Below are positions 371-30,304 of a stretch of 30,434 nt of DNA, piece after piece. Location: the IMG/VR virus record IMGVR_UViG_3300031951_000839, positions 1 through 30,434 of that record. The stretch is one strand, 5' to 3'. The notes beneath the pieces were generated by a model. It had not been told where the DNA came from. It saw only the letters and a program-made list of their open reading frames with translations, and ran no database searches. Numbering within the stretch: position 1 is the stretch's first letter; each line of letters begins with the position of its first letter. Made by a program: the position numbers and the translations under genes. Source of the DNA: a virus.

Positions 371-404
371 GGGAAAGGGGGCTCTCGGGTCCCCTTTCTT
401 TTTA
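371..404 (+). terminator. Rho-independent terminator of gene 32
   Basis: Six bases after the gp32 stop, AAAGGGG (374-380) can pair with CCCCTTT (391-397) around a 10-base loop, and the stem is followed by CTTTTT. This is a standard intrinsic terminator for + strand transcription. On the minus strand the same hairpin is followed by CCCACC rather than a U run, so it should stop the opposing tail operon poorly. The T run overlaps the stop codon (402-404) of the converging minus-strand gene. Confidence 0.85.
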
Positions 405-2057
405 TCTAGCTACTTTAATTGGTGCGTTTGTTTCTTTATATCCAAAACGGCTTAGATAGTATTGCACACTATTTCTGTCAATCATTGTAGGTGCATTTTG
501 TACAGCAGTCGAACCAGCCGCGCTGATATTCGGTGGAGATACTGTCAAACGCGGTGCAGGTTTGTTTGCATCGCTTTTTATTTTAGCAATTTCTGCAGTT
601 TGTACAGCCGCTTCATTTGAAATGAGTTTTGCAAAATCAGGAGCGGCGGTTGTAAGATCGCGAGCAACCCCAGGTCCGACAACCTTTCCGCCAATAGTAC
701 CAATAAATTCTGCCATGTTTGTAAGAGTTTTATCGACAACCTCGCCGCCTTTATTCACAACTCTTTCAGCCACCGATTGCCTAGCAGTAACTTCTCCTTG
801 TTCAGGAGAAAGACCCTTTCCGCCGAACTGAAAGTGGCCACCATGAGTGCCTTTATATTTGTTTTCTACCCACCCATACTTAGCACCGTGCTTTTTTATC
901 CAAGCGTTTGATTCACCATGAATGTCCATAGCAAGGCCACTTAAATGAAGTGATCTTGTCGCAGGATTATAACCCTGCTTTTTCATTTCTTCTTGATACG
1001 CACGCGTTCTTTTACTGCTCGTAACGTCGCTCGGCTTTACCACGCCATTCGAATCTATCATCATCTTATAAAAAGCTTCAGCGCCTTCTTTAGTGAATAC
1101 TACAGGACGCCCTCTTTGATCGTTGGCGCCAGCAATACCCCATCCTTCTCCAGTAGAAGGATGGCTAACTTTAATCACTTTACTTGAAGGCGACTTTGCC
1201 GCTGATTCCTGTTGTCCAGACTGGGCACTTGGTGCTGATTTCCCGCCCGCCCAACTTGGTGCATTTCGTTCCCACCAACTTCTATCATCTTTTACTTGCT
1301 TAGAACTTGTAGCTGGTTTAGATTCTTGGGTCGGACCTGCTGTTACAACCGGTTTCTTATAATCACCCGCTTCAGCTTGGCCTCTCAGCGATCCGGCTGG
1401 TTTAGCAGGCGGCGGAATCGGTTTTGCATCAACGGGAGCCGGTGGAGGTGGTGGAGGGTTCGTAACACCGGCTTCCGCTTGACCTCTGAGAGTTCCGGCA
1501 GGTAATGCTGTTGGAAGCGCCGTGGTTTCTATTGATTCTTCTTCTGGTTCGTCTGGCAAAAAACCATTAAAAAACGAGGTAATCTCTTTTACAGTGTCTG
1601 AAATGAACGTCCCGGCTTCAACAGTAAAATCTACAACACCTTTAATTGCGTTCATAATAGGATCATATGCCAACAAACCAATACCTGCAAGCGCCAGAAA
1701 TCCAAGTCCGCCTTCTTCTGAGCCGTGAACTTTTTCTGCGTCTTTGAGTTTTTCTAATCGGCTTTGTCGCTCTATTCTATCTTCTTGCTCATTCAATTTA
1801 TTATTTTGATATGCAATTTTTTGATTAGTTAGCTTTTGTTTAAACAAGTTGTCCATTATAGAAAGTTGATCTATAACGGCAACTAGTTTTTTAGAGTTTA
1901 ATTCTGTTTTTTGATAAGAAACTGCATCGTCGTTGGCTGCAATTGGTTTTGCAGCTCTTTTAATATCACTTTCATTAAGTAAAACAGAACCAACGATGCC
2001 AAAAGATTTAGCCGTGTTGGTTGTGTCGATGGCAGTGATAAGAACCTTTAATGCCAT
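402..2057 (-). CDS. Virion-associated M15-type peptidase (D,D/L,D-peptidase-like) with coiled-coil N-terminus
   Basis: A 551-residue protein. Residues 55-110 are highly charged and look like a coiled coil. Residues 115-131 are hydrophobic (GGLGFLALAGIGLLAYD). Residues 180-300 are a Pro/Ala/Ser-rich linker holding two copies of PAG-[T/S]-LRGQAEAG (187-197 and 221-231). Residues about 300-412 form an M15 (VanY/Peptidase_M15_3-like) domain: SLHLSGLAMD gives the SxHxxGxAxD signature with H371 and D378, and HGGHFQF supplies the likely third zinc ligand H408. Such enzymes cut peptide cross-links of peptidoglycan. Residues 444-485 match a segment of the neighbouring muramidase protein closely (AEFIGT-[I/L]-GGK and PDFAKLIS). 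The start ATG overlaps the upstream stop (TAATG). It is the last gene of the minus-strand operon. The likely role is local cell-wall digestion during DNA injection, carried in the tail; a free endolysin is less likely given the linker, coiled coil and position. Confidence 0.8.
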   Translation of the reverse strand: MALKVLITAIDTTNTAKSFGIVGSVLLNESDIKRAAKPIAANDDAVSYQKTELNSKKLVAVIDQLSIMDNLFKQKLTNQKIAYQNNKLNEQEDRIERQSRLEKLKDAEKVHGSEEGGLGFLALAGIGLLAYDPIMNAIKGVVDFTVEAGTFISDTVKEITSFFNGFLPDEPEEESIETTALPTALPAGTLRGQAEAGVTNPPPPPPAPVDAKPIPPPAKPAGSLRGQAEAGDYKKPVVTAGPTQESKPATSSKQVKDDRSWWERNAPSWAGGKSAPSAQSGQQESAAKSPSSKVIKVSHPSTGEGWGIAGANDQRGRPVVFTKEGAEAFYKMMIDSNGVVKPSDVTSSKRTRAYQEEMKKQGYNPATRSLHLSGLAMDIHGESNAWIKKHGAKYGWVENKYKGTHGGHFQFGGKGLSPEQGEVTARQSVAERVVNKGGEVVDKTLTNMAEFIGTIGGKVVGPGVARDLTTAAPDFAKLISNEAAVQTAEIAKIKSDANKPAPRLTVSPPNISAAGSTAVQNAPTMIDRNSVQYYLSRFGYKETNAPIKVAR

Positions 2058-3883
2058 TATGATGCCAGTCTATAGTGCCCGAGATATTTTTCAATCCCGC
2101 CAGTACCAGGATAGTTTGGATCAACAACAGAAATAGATCCGTTTGGAGAAATAGACTTTAAAGCACGAGCAGCCGGCGGTATATTGGCAGCTGCGGTGTT
2201 AGTCTTTTTCTCACCCATCGCAATTTGATTTTGAATTTTACTAGACTCTTCAGAAATGAGTTTTGCAAAATCTGGTCCGGTTGTAGTAAGATTTCTTACT
2301 TTCCCTGGGCCTAAGATTTTCCCGCCAAGAGTTCCAATAAACTCGGCGACGCTTGTTAACATTTTATCGGCAGCATCTGCAGCAGTATCAGCAGCTTGTT
2401 GTAATGGACTATCAGATGAAGCAGCTGGACTCATTGGAACACTATTAGTTCCTTTAAGAGTTCCTTCCTTTTTCAGGATATCCATTCTTGCTTCTTCAAA
2501 AGAACGAGGATCGGATCTTTGTCCTGTACCTCCATATGACGGAATATAGTAAGCCCATTGCTTATTTAGAGTACCTGCTTTATTGGCTTGATCATAAATC
2601 GCCTTAGCAGCTTTATCTTGTGTTGCCGCATTAAAAGTATCAGTTAATTTAACTACGCCTTGATCAACCAGACCTTGTAGTGTTTTTGACACAATTTGAT
2701 AAGCGCCCATGGCACTAGAATTCATACTTCCAGAATTAGGAATTAAAACGTTTCTTCCGAACCATAATGCCTCGGCAACAGTAAGTTGTGATAGCTTTCT
2801 ACCATTGAAGTAGTCTTCTGGTTTTCCAAATTTGCCATAACCCAATACGACATCGTATGGCGACTGGCCAGCTGTAGAGGCTGATTGAGTTCCTGATGGA
2901 GTAGGTGCAGCAACTTGTTGTCCTCCCTTTAACTCTTCAGCCATCTTAGATGGTTCATAGGCCCCAGGATCTGCTTGTATTCTTTTTGTTGCTTCAACAG
3001 CAGCGGCGTTTCTTTTATCGCCAGGACCATACGCATTTAAAATATCTTGGTATTTTGAAGGAAGCGCGTTTGGTTTATATGTTTTGCCATCGGGAAGAGT
3101 ATAGCCTGTAGTCCATCTGCCAGATTCATCAAGAACCGGTTTCATGCCATACATCTGTTCCAATTCTTTTCTTGCCTGCAACGGTTCCATCGCAGTATTT
3201 TTCATGAACTTGTCAACACCCCACACAATAGCACCAGCCGCGGCCAGCGCAGCGGCAATTGGTCCGATCGGAAGTGCTCGTGCAAGTCCTAATAAACTCT
3301 TTATATTCTTTAAGAAAGAAATTCCTCGTAGCCATTTCCAGGCTGAAGAAAACGCTTCAAAGGCTGTGACCAACCCCTTGAGTAATGCATCTAGTCCTAA
3401 TTTTCCAAGACTGCCAAGCGCACTTAGAATACCGGCTACGATGCCGCCACCGGGTTTTTGGTTATCGTTTGCTGCACCGTATCGCTTTCCAAGTTCTTCG
3501 AACGTACTGTTTTGTTCAACTTTTGCTTCTCTGGCAGCAAGAGCATTTTCTTCATATACTCTTCTGTCAAAGTCAATTTGCTTCTTTAGAGTACCGTTGA
3601 TTGATACTAAATACTTCACAACATCGGTCAGAAGCTTTTCAGTATCATTCGTTTTTGCTTTGTACGTGCTTTTAGCCTGAGCCGCTGGTAGTGTTCCAGA
3701 CCCGGAAACCCGCTGTTTGGCGGCGGTACCGGCCAATCCGAAACTAGCATAAATTACATTCGAGTTTTCTTGGCTTATCTTATCTTTTGAAGAGAGCATA
3801 GCAGAAACACCCGACGCCAGGCCAGTTACTGCTTTAGATCCGCCTGTAAGAGCACCTTGTACGGCGTCTAATAATCCTGCCAT
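2057..3883 (-). CDS. Tail protein with muramidase-like domain; tape-measure candidate
   Basis: A 608-residue protein. The N-terminus (1-60) is Gly/Ala/Ser-rich and residues 80-125 are charged and helical. Residues 146-226 carry hydrophobic helices (GIVAGILSALGSLGKLGLDALL; LPIGPIAAALAAAGAIVWG), typical of tape-measure or membrane-active tail proteins. Residues about 341-475 resemble lambda-endolysin-like (GH104-type) muramidases: SPYDVVLGYGKF, then SSAMGAYQI (389-397) matching the S-x-A-x-G-x-YQ core. The usual catalytic Glu just before the YDV motif is absent; E371 (LTVAEALWF) is an alternative, so activity is unproven. Residues 508-550 repeat the segment shared with the adjacent M15 protein. 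It follows the gp26/gp51-like pair directly, where tape measures sit in many tailed phages; T4 gp29 (590 residues) is close in length. TAATG overlaps join it to both neighbours. I infer a tape measure or hub protein with a wall-cutting domain. Confidence 0.72.
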   Translation of the reverse strand: MAGLLDAVQGALTGGSKAVTGLASGVSAMLSSKDKISQENSNVIYASFGLAGTAAKQRVSGSGTLPAAQAKSTYKAKTNDTEKLLTDVVKYLVSINGTLKKQIDFDRRVYEENALAAREAKVEQNSTFEELGKRYGAANDNQKPGGGIVAGILSALGSLGKLGLDALLKGLVTAFEAFSSAWKWLRGISFLKNIKSLLGLARALPIGPIAAALAAAGAIVWGVDKFMKNTAMEPLQARKELEQMYGMKPVLDESGRWTTGYTLPDGKTYKPNALPSKYQDILNAYGPGDKRNAAAVEATKRIQADPGAYEPSKMAEELKGGQQVAAPTPSGTQSASTAGQSPYDVVLGYGKFGKPEDYFNGRKLSQLTVAEALWFGRNVLIPNSGSMNSSAMGAYQIVSKTLQGLVDQGVVKLTDTFNAATQDKAAKAIYDQANKAGTLNKQWAYYIPSYGGTGQRSDPRSFEEARMDILKKEGTLKGTNSVPMSPAASSDSPLQQAADTAADAADKMLTSVAEFIGTLGGKILGPGKVRNLTTTGPDFAKLISEESSKIQNQIAMGEKKTNTAAANIPPAARALKSISPNGSISVVDPNYPGTGGIEKYLGHYRLAS

Positions 3884-4065
3884 TACTTCTTTCTACTCTC
3901 TATTTCTTGTCTCTGCTTATCTAAAAATTCCATGAGCATATCGACATAAAGATCTCTTTCATAAGGAATCAAATTTTCAATCTCTGTAATAGAATATTTA
4001 TGATGCTGAGCCAGAGAAAATACCATCGAGTAGTATCTTGCTAGGTTTGTATGGCTCAGCCCCAC
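3883..4065 (-). CDS. Small tail-assembly protein at the gp51 position; likely -1 frameshift extension of the gp26-like gene
   Basis: This frame encodes 60 residues if begun at the GTG at 4065-4063; no ATG is available at the overlap. It is charged and probably helical (LARYYSMVFSLAQHHKYS; LIPYERDLYVDMLMEFLDKQRQEIESRKK). It overlaps the end of the gp26-like gene by 10 bases and its stop forms TAATG with the next start. It occupies the place of gene 51 in T4 (order 26-51), though T4 gp51 is much longer (about 250 residues). Two readings are possible. In one, it is the C-terminal extension made by a -1 ribosomal shift on T-TTT-TTT at 4074-4068, giving a fusion of about 293 residues. In the other, it starts on its own from GTG, helped by AAGGA at 4079-4075. 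The downstream 9-bp stem favours the shift. Confidence 0.75.
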   Translation of the reverse strand: MGLSHTNLARYYSMVFSLAQHHKYSITEIENLIPYERDLYVDMLMEFLDKQRQEIESRKK

Positions 4066-4074
4066 ATAAAAAAA
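4005..4074 (-). promoter_or_regulatory. Candidate programmed -1 ribosomal frameshift signal (slippery heptamer plus stem)
   Basis: Read on the minus strand, the gp26-like frame ends GAT TTT TTT ATG TGG GGC TGA. The run T-TTT-TTT (4074-4068) fits the X-XXY-YYZ slippery rule in the correct phase. Seven bases later, GCTGAGCCA (4060-4052) is perfectly complementary to TGGCTCAGC (4013-4005), a 9-bp stem with a 38-base loop. After a -1 shift the next codons are TAT GTG GGG CTG, which run straight into the downstream 60-residue frame. Heptamer phase, spacer length, stem and joined frame together match tail-chaperone frameshift sites such as lambda G/T and P2 E/E'. AAGGA just upstream could also act as a ribosome-binding site. 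Confidence 0.7.
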
Positions 4075-4763
4075 TCCTTGAGATTTGTTAACTCAATCTC
4101 CCTATCATTCCCTAGGGAATTTTTATACTTGATAGTGTGATGAAGTCTTGGAATGCTTTCAAAGAACTTTCTGATCTTTTCAAACGTCGAGACGTCCAAG
4201 TTATCTAGGAACTCAGAAATTTCTTTCTCTGAATAATCTGTTGCTGGATATACATTGTCCGCGTCGTAGATCACGTCGATGCAATTGACAATGAAGAAGG
4301 TCATGAGCTCTACCTCGTTTGTGATATTGCCCATTTTATCGGTGATGTCTGCAGTAGGGTACCGCATCATCATTCCTACGTCATCATTAATTTCAATCTT
4401 AGAATTTACTTGATCTGGCATACTTACTTCTACATCATCCAGATTTAATTCAAAATCATAAATCTTTTCGTCTTCAGTATCTTTATAAGATAGCTTGATG
4501 ATGTTATTCACCGATCGCGATCTCAACTTTAAGAACAAATATTCTAAGTCAAAGATAGCAAGATTATCGATATTCACTTCACTCTGAATACAGTTTCCAA
4601 GAATTTGCTTGATTGCCCTAATAATTTCAGAATCGTTTCCACTCTGCTGAGCAACCAGCAAGATTTTCTCTTCCTTTACTAGGAATGGTCTAAACATAAC
4701 TTTTTGCTGAGTCGAAGGAATTACAGCATCAAAAAGAGGTTGATCAATTTTTGGCAAAGTCAT
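4056..4763 (-). CDS. 26: gp26-type baseplate hub assembly protein (tail-assembly chaperone-like)
   Basis: A 235-residue protein, close to T4 gp26 (208). Its start (MTLPKIDQPLFDAVIPSTQQKVMFRPFLVKEEKILLVAQQS) has the features of the T4_baseplate family: a short N-terminal strand set with FRPFLVKEEKILL, then an ILGNCI segment and a long acidic C-terminal half. In T4, gp26 is needed to assemble the hub but is not found in the solved baseplate structure, which suits a chaperone. GGAG about 11 bases before the ATG (4763-4761) is the ribosome-binding site. It lies directly before the small frame and the tape-measure candidate, as G/GT chaperones do. Its last codons form a slippery run that may send a fraction of ribosomes into the next frame. 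The family call is by recognition of the N-terminal half; the C-terminal half is less distinctive. Confidence 0.8.
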   Translation of the reverse strand: MTLPKIDQPLFDAVIPSTQQKVMFRPFLVKEEKILLVAQQSGNDSEIIRAIKQILGNCIQSEVNIDNLAIFDLEYLFLKLRSRSVNNIIKLSYKDTEDEKIYDFELNLDDVEVSMPDQVNSKIEINDDVGMMMRYPTADITDKMGNITNEVELMTFFIVNCIDVIYDADNVYPATDYSEKEISEFLDNLDVSTFEKIRKFFESIPRLHHTIKYKNSLGNDREIELTNLKDFFMWG

Positions 4764-8919: not shown

Positions 8920-10196
8920 GTTCAAATGTTGTAATGCGTGAAGGAAAGTTTAAACTAAAAACGTTTGAACTCACTACACCTATCGATTGTAAAACACTTA
9001 AACTTGCACCGTATTGTGCGAGAGCCGACATTTATGAGAGTGTTCTAGAACCAACAGTCGTTGCAGAATTTATTATTACTGATAAAGTAGGAATCTTTAA
9101 CCACTTTAACTTTTTAGAACAACGTATTAATATTGAGTTCACTACATATGAAGATAACGATGACGCAAGTGTAAAATATACTTTATATCCTATTTCTGTT
9201 GACCCGGCAGAAACATTACCAGATGACAAAGGTATCATATACAAACTTACTTGTGTATCTAAAGAAGCAATCAAATCAACACAAATCAAAAACATTCCTC
9301 TTGTAAGGAAAAAAATTGAAAGCGAAACTATTGTTGATGCTCTCTTACAGCTTGTAGAAACAGACAAGAAGTATTTCTTTGAAAAAACGCGTGGGCTTCA
9401 AGCTTGTAATTTTACTGAGCTGACTCCATTTGAAGCAATTGATCAAATAAGACTTAAGTCTATGTCCAGCAAGTACAATGGACACTGTTTCTTATTCTAT
9501 GAAAACAGTAAAGGCTATCACTTTAAAACCTTCGAAGGTTTGATTGATGATGGAAAGAAAAAGATTGGTGACAAGTATTTCACTCAAGTAGCTCTGGCCG
9601 ACGTATCTGTTACTGGATCTCGATGGAGAAATATTCTTGGGTTGAAGGTGATTCAGTCCGGAAACCAAAACGTAACACGATTGCTGGGCGGCGGTAAAGT
9701 TTTAATTAAGAGAAAGAATATAATTACCGGCGAGATCGAACCGTTTACAACAGATTCATCTAAGATAGAATTTGTTTCTTTGAACAAAGGATCATTGAGT
9801 CAGAACTTGACATCAAAGAAAGAACTTTCGAAAGATGAAGGCAGAATCGAATTAGTTTATTTTGATCCATCGGTTGAAACTGTTGAACAAGCCGAAGCAA
9901 AGTCGCTTCGACCATATTATCTTTCGTTTCTTTTTAATACTGTTGCACACATCACCGTGTATGGTGACAGCACACTTACAATCGGCGATGTGATCACATG
10001 TGATATTCCTGAACACACTGCACTAACGCTCGGTGAGGAAAGACCATTTGTTGAGAGCAATGAAATGCTAGCAGGTAACTACCTAGTAACTAAGTGTCGC
10101 CATATTCTTTCCTTTAATGAAGGTGCAGAATATATGCAAGCGCTTGAGATTGTGAAAGATGGGTATGGCGGTGAAATGCCAAGGCCTACTAAATAG
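8916..10196 (+). CDS. 27: gp27-type baseplate hub protein
   Basis: A 426-residue protein (T4 gp27 is 391). The N-terminal domain (LKTFELTTPIDCKTLKLAPYCARADIYESVLEPTVVAEFIITD...NHFNFLEQRINIEF) and the later segments YKLTCVSKEAI, ETIVDALLQLVETD and FTELTPFEAIDQIRLKSMSSKY follow the order of gp27/gpD-type hubs: two tube-like domains with an inserted helical part. The C-terminal part (HITVYGDSTLTIGDVITCDIPEH...GNYLVTKCRHILSFNEGAEYMQALEIVKDGYG) matches the late-control-D-like ending, where the hub closes on the spike. gp27 forms a trimer that joins the tail tube to gp5. The gene is followed by gene 5 after only 8 bases with GGAG between them, which fits the physical partnership. The family call rests on the pattern and on the gp5 neighbour. 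Confidence 0.78.
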   Translation: MSSNVVMREGKFKLKTFELTTPIDCKTLKLAPYCARADIYESVLEPTVVAEFIITDKVGIFNHFNFLEQRINIEFTTYEDNDDASVKYTLYPISVDPAETLPDDKGIIYKLTCVSKEAIKSTQIKNIPLVRKKIESETIVDALLQLVETDKKYFFEKTRGLQACNFTELTPFEAIDQIRLKSMSSKYNGHCFLFYENSKGYHFKTFEGLIDDGKKKIGDKYFTQVALADVSVTGSRWRNILGLKVIQSGNQNVTRLLGGGKVLIKRKNIITGEIEPFTTDSSKIEFVSLNKGSLSQNLTSKKELSKDEGRIELVYFDPSVETVEQAEAKSLRPYYLSFLFNTVAHITVYGDSTLTIGDVITCDIPEHTALTLGEERPFVESNEMLAGNYLVTKCRHILSFNEGAEYMQALEIVKDGYGGEMPRPTK

Positions 10197-10204
10197 GAGA
10201 TATC

Positions 10205-11023
10205 ATGAATATTCAAAAGTGGTTTGAAGGCGAAATTGTAGATGTAAACGACCCTGAAAAACTGGGACGTGTAAAAGTAAGAGAGACGCTTGGCCATAGC
10301 AACAGAGTAGAATCTGAAGATTTGTTTTGGTCACATGTTCTTATGCCGCCAACCGGAGCAAATGCCAAAGGTGCTGGCGTTGCGCCAGTTGGGTTAACAG
10401 AAGATTCCAAGGTAATCGGATTTAGAATCAACGAAACTCTTTCCTATGTCATAGGCTCTGTTGCCTACGTACCAAATGAAGCAGACCATTCTTTATCAAG
10501 ACATGCCAGAGGTGTTGGTCCAGTTCAAAAAGAATATATCGAAGAGCTTGGTGAAAAGAGAACGGCATATGCGGCAAAGTATCCACATAATAAGACTATT
10601 ACCACAACATCTGGTCATGTTCTAGAGCTTGATGATACGCCAAAAGCAGAACGTATTCATGTGTATCACAAGTCAGGAGCTTATGTAGAGATCTTTCCGG
10701 ATGGATCAATCGTAACCAAATCGATGAAAGACTCTGTGAGCGTTACTATGAACGATCACTCGATTAGCGTAGTGAAAGGCGATCTACAGATTGTAGCAAA
10801 TGAAGGTAAGATTCAAATCAACTCTGATGGAGATATTGATCTTGTCTCGAAGTCAGGTGTAGTGAATATTGCCGGCACCGAAGTTGGAATTACTGGCAAT
10901 CTATTCATCGAAGGCGATGTTGAGATTGAAGGAAAGCTTGATGCTACTGACGAGATCACATCTGATAAAATTAAATTGACCAAACACAAGCACTCGCCGA
11001 AGACCGGTTTACCGACTGAATAA
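10205..11023 (+). CDS. 5: gp5-type central spike without lysozyme domain, His-x-His tip
   Basis: A 272-residue protein, less than half of T4 gp5 (575). Residues 1-95 are the OB-fold (WFEGEIVDVNDPEKLGRVKVRETLG; LFWSHVLMPPTG; VIGSVAYVPN), the collar that sits on gp27. Residues about 130-245 are a strand-rich spike (TTTSGHVLELDD; YVEIFPDGSIVTKSM; IVANEGKIQINSDGDIDLVS; GDVEIEGKLDATDEI). The T4 lysozyme insert is missing entirely: the OB-fold runs through a short linker straight into the spike. The C-terminus (LTKHKHSPKTGLPTE) carries H261-x-H263 followed by a Gly/Pro turn, as in P2 gpV and phi92 gp138, where three such pairs hold an iron ion at the tip. T4 instead uses a separate PAAR tip (gp5.4). 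TAG-GGAG-ATATC-ATG gives a good ribosome-binding site. The spike pierces the outer membrane during injection. Confidence 0.85.
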   Translation: MNIQKWFEGEIVDVNDPEKLGRVKVRETLGHSNRVESEDLFWSHVLMPPTGANAKGAGVAPVGLTEDSKVIGFRINETLSYVIGSVAYVPNEADHSLSRHARGVGPVQKEYIEELGEKRTAYAAKYPHNKTITTTSGHVLELDDTPKAERIHVYHKSGAYVEIFPDGSIVTKSMKDSVSVTMNDHSISVVKGDLQIVANEGKIQINSDGDIDLVSKSGVVNIAGTEVGITGNLFIEGDVEIEGKLDATDEITSDKIKLTKHKHSPKTGLPTE

Positions 11024-27798: not shown

Positions 27799-28007
27799 TG
27801 TTAGCAAAAACAAATCATCATGGTTATGTAAAAGATACCGATACCGGTGTCATCATAAATAACGATGAAGAAGAATATAAAAAGTTCTTGGCAACACGAG
27901 AATCTATTAAAAGAAACAACAATCTGTGCAAGAGAATAGATGAAGTTGAAAACGATCTTCGTGATATCAAAGAACTTTTACTACAGTTAGTACATAGGAA
28001 TAATTAA
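27798..28007 (+). CDS. Small coiled-coil protein of unknown function
   Basis: A 69-residue protein with TAATG overlaps at both ends, so it is firmly part of the late operon. Residues 1-25 look like a short strand pair (GYVKDTDTGVIINND); residues 25-66 are helical and charged, with a heptad-like RIDEVENDLRDIKELLLQLV end. T4-like phages often carry a small protein of this sort (strand pair, then coiled coil) among structural genes; its role is not known to me. Between two large structural genes, it could be a chaperone, a linker or a minor virion subunit. Confidence 0.7.
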   Translation: MLAKTNHHGYVKDTDTGVIINNDEEEYKKFLATRESIKRNNNLCKRIDEVENDLRDIKELLLQLVHRNN

Positions 28008-30304
28008 TGGCAAGACAAGTAGCTAACGTAGACATTATTACTGATAGTTTTGAAGTTTGGTTGCTTCAGACCAACGAACTGCTGCATGCCTTTTCACGTG
28101 AAATCATCACGGCCAATACCACATATGCTAACACTGGCAACTCGACGATTAGCCGTACCTCTCAACTATGGGGTACCTTTGGTGCTAATAATCTTGTAGT
28201 AACAGATGCTCTTCGTGGCGGTAATGTCAACGGTCTTTCTGCCAACCTGGTAATTACCACAAATGCTACTGCTTACGTTGCTGCCGATGCTGGCATCCGT
28301 GTGCTAGCAGGCAACAGCACTTCGAACAGTTTCCTCAGTCCAGTTGGCGTTCACTTAGGTCTTGGTACTGCTAATACTGTCGTTAACAGCATAGCTATTA
28401 TAACACAATCCAACAATGTTGTAAACACAAATATTAGCCCAACGCGCATTCAAATTGCAAATAGTACGTCAACTGCAAACATGACACCGACTGCTTTCAG
28501 CACCGGCCTGTTTGTTGGTAATACTACTGCGATGGCTATTGGTGCAAATGTATATGCCAATGCTACTTCTGTATATGTCGGTAACTCTACACTGAATAGT
28601 ACATTCGGAAATGGAACATGGTCGGGTACTGCTAACCTTGCAATTACTCCTACCGGTTATCTTACAGTTACTGGCGCTGCTAACGTTACAAGTAATGCTA
28701 ATTTTGCAAATACAGTTACGGTCACTGGAGCAACAACTCTCTCGAATACTCTTGCAGTCACAGGAAATGTAACGCTTTCAAATACTCTTGCTGTTACAGG
28801 CGCTGCAACTCTTTCTAGCACTCTTGGTGTGACTGGAGCGACAACACTCTCGAATACATTGACCGTATCTGGACTTGCAAACGCCGCAGCCGGATTAAAT
28901 ACCACGACAGCAAATGCTTCTGTGGCCGTGAATGTTGGAGCAAACGTCAATTTAACAACAACCGCTGTAAATGTTGGCAACTCAACAGTTAATACTGCAA
29001 TTACTGCTACAGCAATTGACACCGATGGAACTCTAGCGGTTCTCGGTGCTACTACTCTTTCAAATACGCTTTCAGTCACCGGCCTGACTACTGCTTCCGG
29101 TAATTTAAATACACCAACAGCAAATGCTTCTGTGGCCGTGAATGTTGGTGCCAATGTTAACTTGTCGACAACATCTATAAATGTTGGCAACTCGACTGTT
29201 AATACGTCTATTACTGCTACAGCAATTGACACCGATGGAACTCTAGCGGTTCTCGGTGCTACTACTTTGTCAAACACTCTTAATGTGACTGGACTGGCAT
29301 CTCTGAATGGTGCGCTAAATACTACAACAGCAAATGCTTCTGTGGCCGTGAATGTTGGTGCAAACGTTAATCTTACTACGTCTAGATTTAACGTTGGTAA
29401 CTCAACGGTTAATACATTCATTACATCCACTGCTATTGAAACAGACGGCACGCTCACAGTTCTTGGAGCAACATCACTAGCAAATACGCTTGGTGTGACT
29501 GGAGCTGCTACGCTTTCAAATACTCTTGGTGTATCTGGAGCTACGACCCTTTCTAGCACTCTTGGTGTGACTGGAGCTGCAACGCTTTCGAATACAATTG
29601 CAGTAACCGGTGCAGCTACGCTTTCGAATACATTGAACGTAACTGGTCTATCAACACTAGGTCTTCTGAATGCGACAACTGCTAACGTAACTACACTGAA
29701 TGTCGGTGCTAATGTTAATCTGTCGACGACACGAATCAATGTTGGCAATTCGACTGTTAATACATTCATTACTTCGACTGCAATTGAAACTGATGGTACG
29801 CTCACAGTTCTTGGTGCAACATCATTAGCGAATACTCTTGCAGTTACTGGCGCAACAACACTTTCGAACACGATTACAGTTACCGGTGCGGCTAACGTAC
29901 TTAGCACCTTTGGTGTTGGCGGTGCCACATCTCTGGCTGGATCTCTTACCGTTGGCGGTGTTACTACACTTCAAAACGAATATGTAATCGACGTGGCAGC
30001 AAATGCTGACATTGGTTCTACTGTTGGTCCTGTACTTGTTTACAGATTCCCGAAAGCAACGTATGCTTCGGCCAAGTTTGAAGTCCAGGTAAAGAATGGT
30101 AATACACAACTTTCAGAACTAGTTCTAGCTCATGATGGCGGACTCAATGCCTTTGTGACTGTGTATGGTACTGTTGCTTCAAACGGTGGCGCTTCTCCAC
30201 TCGGAACATTTACTGCAAATACTGATACTGCGAATGTGAATCTCTATCTCGTTCAGACTGTTGCAAACTCGGCCGTGAAGGTCGTAGCTCATCTAATTAA
30301 GTAA
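28007..30304 (+). CDS. Repetitive tail-fibre-like protein
   Basis: A 765-residue protein. The N-terminus (VANVDIITDSFEVWLLQTNELLHAFSREIITANTT) is a conserved anchoring segment that I associate with fibre-like proteins of marine T4-like phages. Residues about 45-230 are Asn/Thr-rich strands. Residues 239-655 are made of two interleaved repeats: a 12-residue unit (VTGATTLSNTLA) in arrays at 28721-28864, 29459-29638 and about 29807-29974, and a 70-residue unit (ANASVAVNVGANVNL...INVGNSTVNT...TDGTLAVLGA) starting at 28907, 29117, 29327 and, degenerate, near 29675. The last 110 residues (YVIDVAANADIGSTVGPVLVYRFPKATYASAKFEVQVKNG...VKVVAHLIK) form a different, globular beta domain, probably the tip. 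Such fibres form trimeric beta-structured shafts, the repeats setting the length and the tip contacting the host. The receptor is unknown. It is joined to the small gene upstream by TAATG. Confidence 0.75.
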   Translation: MARQVANVDIITDSFEVWLLQTNELLHAFSREIITANTTYANTGNSTISRTSQLWGTFGANNLVVTDALRGGNVNGLSANLVITTNATAYVAADAGIRVLAGNSTSNSFLSPVGVHLGLGTANTVVNSIAIITQSNNVVNTNISPTRIQIANSTSTANMTPTAFSTGLFVGNTTAMAIGANVYANATSVYVGNSTLNSTFGNGTWSGTANLAITPTGYLTVTGAANVTSNANFANTVTVTGATTLSNTLAVTGNVTLSNTLAVTGAATLSSTLGVTGATTLSNTLTVSGLANAAAGLNTTTANASVAVNVGANVNLTTTAVNVGNSTVNTAITATAIDTDGTLAVLGATTLSNTLSVTGLTTASGNLNTPTANASVAVNVGANVNLSTTSINVGNSTVNTSITATAIDTDGTLAVLGATTLSNTLNVTGLASLNGALNTTTANASVAVNVGANVNLTTSRFNVGNSTVNTFITSTAIETDGTLTVLGATSLANTLGVTGAATLSNTLGVSGATTLSSTLGVTGAATLSNTIAVTGAATLSNTLNVTGLSTLGLLNATTANVTTLNVGANVNLSTTRINVGNSTVNTFITSTAIETDGTLTVLGATSLANTLAVTGATTLSNTITVTGAANVLSTFGVGGATSLAGSLTVGGVTTLQNEYVIDVAANADIGSTVGPVLVYRFPKATYASAKFEVQVKNGNTQLSELVLAHDGGLNAFVTVYGTVASNGGASPLGTFTANTDTANVNLYLVQTVANSAVKVVAHLIK
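28721..28864 (+). repeat. 12-residue (36-base) tandem repeats, first array
   Basis: Four in-phase copies of V-T-G-x-x-T-L-S-[N/S]-T-L-x occur in the fibre-like gene. Synonymous codons differ between copies (for example CTCTCGAAT against CTTTCAAAT). Further arrays of the same unit lie at 29459-29638 (five copies) and about 29807-29974. Confidence 0.85.
28907..29458 (+). repeat. 210-base tandem repeats in the fibre-like gene
   Basis: Units begin at 28907, 29117 and 29327, exactly 210 bases apart; the third is cut short by a 12-residue-repeat array, and a diverged fourth unit starts near 29675. All three begin with the same stretch (ACAGCAAATGCTTCTGTGGC and beyond). A 57-base block is identical at 29000-29056 and 29210-29266, while flanking parts of the units differ. 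Confidence 0.88.

Follow-up and report, generated by a model that had tools for sequence, protein, structure and literature searches.

Paralogous tail proteins in tandem at the tape-measure place of T4-like phages: a candidate two-protein tape measure with exchangeable wall hydrolases

What is the function of two neighbouring, related tail proteins that carry different wall-cutting domains beside the baseplate hub genes of a T4-like phage? The question is raised by a virus record of IMG/VR (30,434 bases, hereafter the window), in which gene A (P0002) and gene B (P0001) follow each other. The pair is probably an old tandem duplicate at the tape-measure place, forming a two-protein tape measure with exchangeable wall hydrolases. 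Comparison of sequences directly supported the paralogy of the scaffolds, the position after gp26-gp51, and the exchange of enzymes between scaffolds and with outside sources. Both open reading frames (ORFs) were present on the minus strand where the first-pass annotation had placed them, and the stop codon of A overlapped the start codon of B by one base (TAATG). The parts of the pair are distributed as follows.

2057..3883, minus strand: gene A (P0002), 608 amino acids, scaffold plus muramidase-like domain; first large gene past gp51
402..2057, minus strand: gene B (P0001), 551 amino acids, scaffold plus M15 peptidase domain
2894..3883, minus strand: N-terminal scaffold of A, residues 1-330; long helices predicted; kept in sister contigs
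1203..2057, minus strand: N-terminal scaffold of B, residues 1-285; paralogue of the A scaffold by profile comparison
3221..3277, minus strand: top hydrophobic 19-residue segment of A, residues 203-221; mean Kyte-Doolittle value 1.83
1653..1709, minus strand: top hydrophobic 19-residue segment of B, residues 117-135; mean Kyte-Doolittle value 1.58
2555..2872, minus strand: muramidase-like domain of A, spanning roughly residues 338-443; lacking the Glu of its relatives; another domain instead in 11 sister contigs
783..1199, minus strand: M15 peptidase domain of B, residues 287-425; invariant residues in a seven-row alignment are S369, H371, G374, A376, D378 and H408
2072..2401, minus strand: C-terminal shared segment of A, residues 495-604
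444..767, minus strand: C-terminal shared segment of B, residues 431-538
2253..2272, minus strand: exact 20-base repeat, copy 1 (in A)
619..638, minus strand: exact 20-base repeat, copy 2 (in B)

The C-terminal segments of A and B shared 40 of 101 residues (40%; expect value (E) 2e-16, BLASTP) and scored 72.4 bits, compared to at most 28.1 in 100 block shuffles and 18.5 in a reversed control. Their AEFIGT motif began at residue 513 in A and 449 in B. The likeness of this segment was real, but its earlier description as near-identical was overstated (26 of 44 aligned residues and 83 of 132 bases identical). The 20-base repeat was confirmed as exact; it was the only exact repeat of at least 20 bases in the region and codes for part of the shared segment. 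Pairwise likeness of the N-termini was weak (24%, E 3e-4), while profile-profile comparison of the N-termini alone joined A and B with a probability of 98.8% (E 9e-17), compared to no more than 21% for a reversed control. Similarity was therefore found past the short shared segment, and the match of the N-terminal halves indicates that the likeness is that of a common frame. On these alignments and profiles, A and B are confirmed as paralogues, at the C-terminal segment and at the N-terminal coiled coil. All scaffold claims rest on the N-terminal comparison; a whole-length profile matrix was set aside because its scores are raised by the enzyme domains and by database rows in common.

The C-terminal likeness between A and B was particular to each phage or genus. 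In the distant relative L031, residues 645-688 of A and 597-640 of B were 73% identical over 44 residues, with no match in other phages of the set, and shorter phage-specific patches of the same kind occurred in S-CREM1 and MS29. Such phage-specific likeness looks like homogenisation within each genome, or adaptation to a common partner.

The pair follows two genes of the hub.

3883..4065, minus strand: gp51-like baseplate hub assembly catalyst (PHROG 634, E 1.9e-21); immediately precedes A
4056..4763, minus strand: gp26-like baseplate hub protein (PHROG 150, E 1.4e-62), used as anchor to find the locus elsewhere

Genes on the minus strand were ordered gp4-like, gp2-like, tail tube, gp26, gp51, A and B. 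Beyond the pair, the plus strand carried a gp48-like gene and then more baseplate genes, including a gp6-like gene whose nearest relatives were in Caulobacter phage Cr30 and in Sinorhizobium and cyanobacterial T4-like phages (34-39% identity). Lying directly after gp26 and gp51, A and B thus occupy a place beside hub and tail genes, as expected of a tape measure. When the locus was read from the gp26 anchor in 25 named T4-like phages, T4 excluded, it displayed two large genes after gp51 in 18 of them (S-SM1, S-RIM50, S-RIM8, S-RIM2, P-RSM4, S-CAM3, S-SSM2, MED4-213, S-CREM1, ACG-2014f, ACG-2014d, S-CREM2, S-B68, S-PM2, S-N03, S-H34, S-SCSM1 and MS29) and a single large gene in the other seven (S-CRM01, ACG-2014j, phiM7, Melnitz-3, S13, DLP_6 and Cr30). 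The position of the pair is that of the one large protein of relatives, which often resembles a tape measure, a circumstance missed in the first-pass annotation. After exclusion of L001, a copy of the window, A and B were more similar than in all 100 shuffles in 19 of 26 deduplicated pairs (window included), and seven of seven further pairs, compared without shuffles, matched at E 2.2e-7 or better. Length tables left out S-RIM2 (L108), whose gene A is broken up in the annotation, as well as L041 and L077, whose second ORF was doubtful.

A tree of the N-terminal scaffolds separated the A from the B proteins of seven marine cyanophages by one branch (100/100). The same split was recovered in four cluster-C cyanophages (90/93) and in the group of the window (window, L005, L009 and L031; 99/99). 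The separate clades in the seven cyanophages indicate that the duplication is old. The M15 domain was distributed differently: it was found on B in the window, L005, L009, S-SM1, P-RSM4, S-RIM2 and S-SCSM1, and on A in S-RIM50, S-B68, MED4-213, S-CREM1 and ACG-2014d. The M15 tree required four changes between the A and B slots, at least two of them forced by well-supported branches, and the M15 domain on A of S-RIM50 was 48-59% identical to the B copies of the window group, S-SM1, P-RSM4 and S-RIM2. This conflict with the scaffold tree indicates that enzymes moved between scaffolds. The muramidase-like family of window A likewise occurred elsewhere, on the first large gene of L041 and on B of S-RIM8, ACG-2014d and S-CAM3. 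A separate observation came from Sinorhizobium phage phiM7 (L021, 1269-4447), where a muramidase-like domain with its Glu present and an annotated peptidase M15 lay on neighbouring genes of the hub group, which suggests that these enzyme classes pass from one kind of structural carrier to another.

Replacement was also seen between close relatives. Along an alignment of window A with its counterpart in sister contig L006, identity per 25 residues was mostly 0.5-0.96 up to about residue 325 (0.4 in one 25-residue interval), dropped to 0.08-0.16 across about residues 340-450, and was 0.8-0.96 again near 515-550. The replacing domain carried the motif ARTNNPGN (NPGN-type) and matched PHROG 2276 (tape measure) in L009 (E 3.7e-9) and PHROG 873 (endolysin) in L005 (E 4e-4). 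Among the 14 contigs with the frame and a readable middle domain of A (two in part), this domain was NPGN-type in 11 and muramidase-like in three (window, L004 and L012); the latter are one lineage, 99.3-99.99% identical over aligned pieces. The more distant L031 also had the NPGN-type domain in A. A search of IMG/VR with the C-terminal segment found 14 loci, all of the same phage group, with L135 truncated so that most of A is missing; wherever they could be read, B was always M15, and A muramidase-like or NPGN-type. Among named phages, the segment searched alone gave chance matches only (best E 2). Overall, gene duplication followed by domain replacement, as proposed in the first-pass annotation, was borne out by an old shared duplication, by replacement between close relatives, and by the conflict of scaffold and enzyme trees.

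Two sister contigs showed broken genes. In L012 (IMG/VR 3300008262_000149), a contig that otherwise matches the window at roughly 99% identity or more, B lacked 112 bases (gene positions 700-811, about 9007-9008 of the contig). The loss disrupts the reading frame between the linker and the M15 domain and is either a true variant or an assembly error. In L130 (2708-4546), a frameshift split gene A within the NPGN-type domain.

The M15 domain proposed for B was well supported by fold matches and invariant motif residues. The top three fold matches were the M15 enzymes LysECD7, ChiX and RB49 peptidase (E 0.026, 0.079 and 0.22; probability 0.98 for the best), and B carried the motif S-x-H-x6-D followed by a further H, with S369, H371, D378 and H408, which we take to be the zinc ligands, invariant in seven rows. 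M15 enzymes have a catalytic acid three positions before the last His; in the alignment, B had neither Asp nor Glu at that position.

The muramidase-like domain earlier assigned to A was upheld as a family match only. It matched PHROG 90 (phage endolysin, muramidase-related) at E 2.3e-7, was matched by tblastn to cyanophage 'endolysins', and was joined by iterative search to domains in eight other proteins; we presume that this family is lambda-R-like phage muramidase. The Pfam scan gave no enzyme match and Foldseek against the PDB no fold match for A. Sequence searches of the PDB returned nothing useful, a topoisomerase match over only 55 residues being set aside as chance. Of the eight family members shown, seven had a Glu before the Y[ND] motif, presumably catalytic as in the lambda endolysin; the next residue was Ser or Gly in six of them and Ile in L041. 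Window A had no such Glu. It therefore probably lacks muramidase activity (catalytic Glu lost) or acts in another way.

Complementary glycan- and peptide-cutting, the activity earlier expected of the pair, is thus doubtful in this phage, since A is without the Glu of its relatives and since the pairing is no rule. A glycan and a peptide cutter were combined in 11 of 14 pairs with two classifiable enzymes (window, S-SM1, P-RSM4, S-RIM50, S-RIM2, ACG-2014f, ACG-2014d, L034, L056, S-SSM2 and S-SCSM1), a raw count of family names in related phages that includes the window despite its missing Glu. A strict rule was rejected given that S-CREM1 had two peptidases (that on B by annotation) and S-CREM2 and S-N03 a chitinase-type and a lysozyme-type enzyme (PHROG names). 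Judged from domain families, glycan-plus-peptide sets are common but not universal.

Are such proteins part of the particle? According to the available text of two reports, pairs at the homologous position are. The virion of S-CREM2 holds the adjacent 'endolysins' ORF208 (1565 amino acids) and ORF209 (1456 amino acids), with 73 and 71 unique peptides (PMC10665884), and that of S-SCSM1 holds ORF213 (950 amino acids) and ORF214 (1131 amino acids), adjacent after gp51, for which the authors considered a structural role unlikely (PMC9602691). The term 'tape measure' was absent from the accessible text on S-CREM2, a phage with an exceptionally long tail (PMC10665884). For S-CREM1, 14 virion proteins are reported in the accessible part of the source (PMC9964418).

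Several features of the pair were those of a tape measure. The two proteins are long and, in low-confidence models, mainly helical, with predicted helices of up to 55-56 residues, and have a hydrophobic segment. The best such segment of window A (1.83) and B (1.58) exceeded those of ten other window proteins (at most 1.48), and a 19-residue segment of at least 1.6 was found in 24 of the 30 A proteins and in 21 of the 30 B proteins but in none of those ten. Cr30's single large protein is annotated as tape measure, and a tape-measure PHROG was the best-represented family in six of 39 single-gene relatives. Among pair or slot members scanned singly, matches to tape-measure families were weak and present in four of 19.

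Lengths of A and B were correlated in cyanophages (r 0.76, n=17; 0.54 without S-CREM2). Tail lengths could be gathered for six phages, the window phage not among them, from the accessible parts of four papers (PMC10665884, PMC9964418, PMC9602691, PMC10436341): S-CREM2 418 nm, S-SCSM1 173, S-CREM1 165, S-N03 138, S-H34 129 and MS29 124. Longer tails went with a longer A (Pearson 0.99, a value dominated by S-CREM2; Spearman 0.89) and with a longer B (Spearman 0.77). The tail measured 1.38-1.82 angstrom per residue of A in five phages, close to the value for a helix that was applied to phiCbK (1,964 amino acids and 295 nm in the available text of PMC3556154), and 2.67 in S-CREM2. Proportionality of the tail to the summed length of A and B did not hold, with 0.66-0.83 angstrom per residue for five of the phages and 1.38 for S-CREM2. 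S-CREM2 (L117, 7484-16555) had the longest pair here, with a tail nearly twice the span of A at 1.5 angstrom per residue. Left unused were the tail lengths of S-CRM01 (140-170 nm), which has one large gene, and S-SZBM1 (72-114 nm in the available text of PMC9146016), in which the pair was not assigned.

A number of results weigh against a two-protein tape measure. Seven of the 26 deduplicated pairs failed to beat every shuffle (L039, L041, L048, L052, L077, L108 and L112), and the window proteins were only weakly alike to the cyanophage scaffolds by profile (at most 53%, or 66% through L031). In the PHROG scan, A and B of the window matched no tape-measure family, and no profile link was found between T4 gp29 and any query here. 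The gp29 family (PHROG 1283) had no match in the window phage's longer contig or in a sister contig (T4 control E 2.8e-252), and its only match in 13 records besides T4 was at chance level (S-CRM01, E 0.08). Mean pLDDT (predicted local distance difference test) of the structure models was low (43.9 for A and 42.1 for B), lengths of A and B were uncorrelated in 13 non-cyanophage pairs (r 0.12), and tail scaling relied on six phages, S-CREM2 dominating and lying off the line. Virion proteomics, proposed earlier for both proteins, comes in the accessible sources from homologous-position pairs of other phages (S-CREM2 and S-SCSM1).

Part of these results would fit a single ruler, in which only A is the tape measure and B an old paralogue turned accessory tail-lumen or tail-tip lysin with no length role, a reading that we consider rather unlikely. 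In the six phages, tail length tracked A better than B, and besides the lack of length co-variation outside cyanophages, some phages showed large differences in length between the two, in either direction (589 and 1074 residues for A and B in L034, 1167 and 749 in S-PM2). Several phages had both enzymes on B and none detected on A. Yet A and B retain the same architecture, their lengths co-vary in the 17 cyanophages, and unique peptides were nearly equal in number in S-CREM2, according to the available text. It is improbable that neither protein is a ruler, the pair being virion-associated lysins or baseplate-hub pilot proteins and an unrecognised protein setting tail length. Such a role would agree with the missing link to gp29, with a tail in S-CREM2 exceeding one helix of A, and with the hub genes next to the pair, but it leaves aside that the locus is where relatives have one large protein that is annotated as tape measure or matches such families, and that A and B combine a helical architecture (in low-confidence models) with hydrophobic segments. 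Many cyanophage records annotate these proteins as endolysins, and the S-CREM2 paper, in its available text, speaks of a 'lysis protein' (PMC10665884). Lysis from within is nevertheless very improbable as their function: an endolysin would be encoded by a separate lysis gene and be no tail component, whereas these are helical proteins of 400-1500 residues, encoded among clustered tail genes and coupled with one another as well as with hub genes, with homologous-position pairs reported in purified virions of S-CREM2 and S-SCSM1.

If the two proteins do form the tape measure, the translationally coupled A and B would assemble together, within the tube of the tail, into a complex that is largely helical, starts on the hub and helps to set the length of the tube. 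On infection the complex would exit first, its hydrophobic segments would then enter the inner membrane, and the enzyme domain near the C-terminus would open the wall. The exchange of enzymes on a conserved frame presumably tracks host walls. More tentatively, a large group of T4-like phages may use a hetero-oligomeric two-protein tape measure that arose by this old duplication, with inherited frames and with enzymes swapped between frames or replaced from outside.

No tape measure was named in the T4-like cyanophage records and in the accessible text of the literature examined. Should the pair be the ruler, a missing tail component of very abundant marine viruses would receive a name, a tape measure could consist of two paralogues, and wall-cutting enzymes would be naturally exchanged on a fixed delivery frame, which would be useful in the study of host-range change and modular lysins. 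A literature search restricted to open-licence papers, hence weak evidence of absence, found no paper on the pair or on a two-paralogue tape measure; papers returned for 'two tape measure' had other subjects.

Two other ORFs of the window were noted. That at 10205-11023 (272 residues), read as gp5-like from gene place only, is probably too short for a lysozyme insertion of the T4 type, a possible reason for the presence of the wall enzymes on A and B. That at 28007-30304 (765 residues) consisted largely of TLxVTGAATLSNTL-type repeats and is probably a fibre or adhesin-like protein.

Among known systems, T4 gp29 is similar in size to A and B (590 amino acids) and belongs to the hub gene group gp26-51-27-28-29, but is a single gene with no sequence or profile link to them and no enzyme domain in the PHROG scan. 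Both enzyme classes of the window are united in phiM7 (gp98 and gp97), on proteins of the hub gene group rather than on a pair after gp51. The tandem 'endolysins' of T4-like cyanophages (S-CREM2 ORF208/209, S-SCSM1 ORF213/214, and those of S-SM1, S-RIM50 and P-RSM4) occupy the same place after gp26-gp51 and are also paired paralogous scaffolds with wall enzymes, but are mostly longer (about 580-1565 amino acids), bear other enzymes and show weak scaffold likeness. As described in the available text of their reports, the tape measures of TM4 (PMC1796659) and phiCbK (PMC3556154) also join a long tail protein to a wall-cutting domain, a peptidoglycan hydrolase domain on a tape measure being 'not unusual' according to the phiCbK authors. 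Those phages have one such protein per tail, whereas the system of the window has two paralogous scaffolds with exchanged enzymes.

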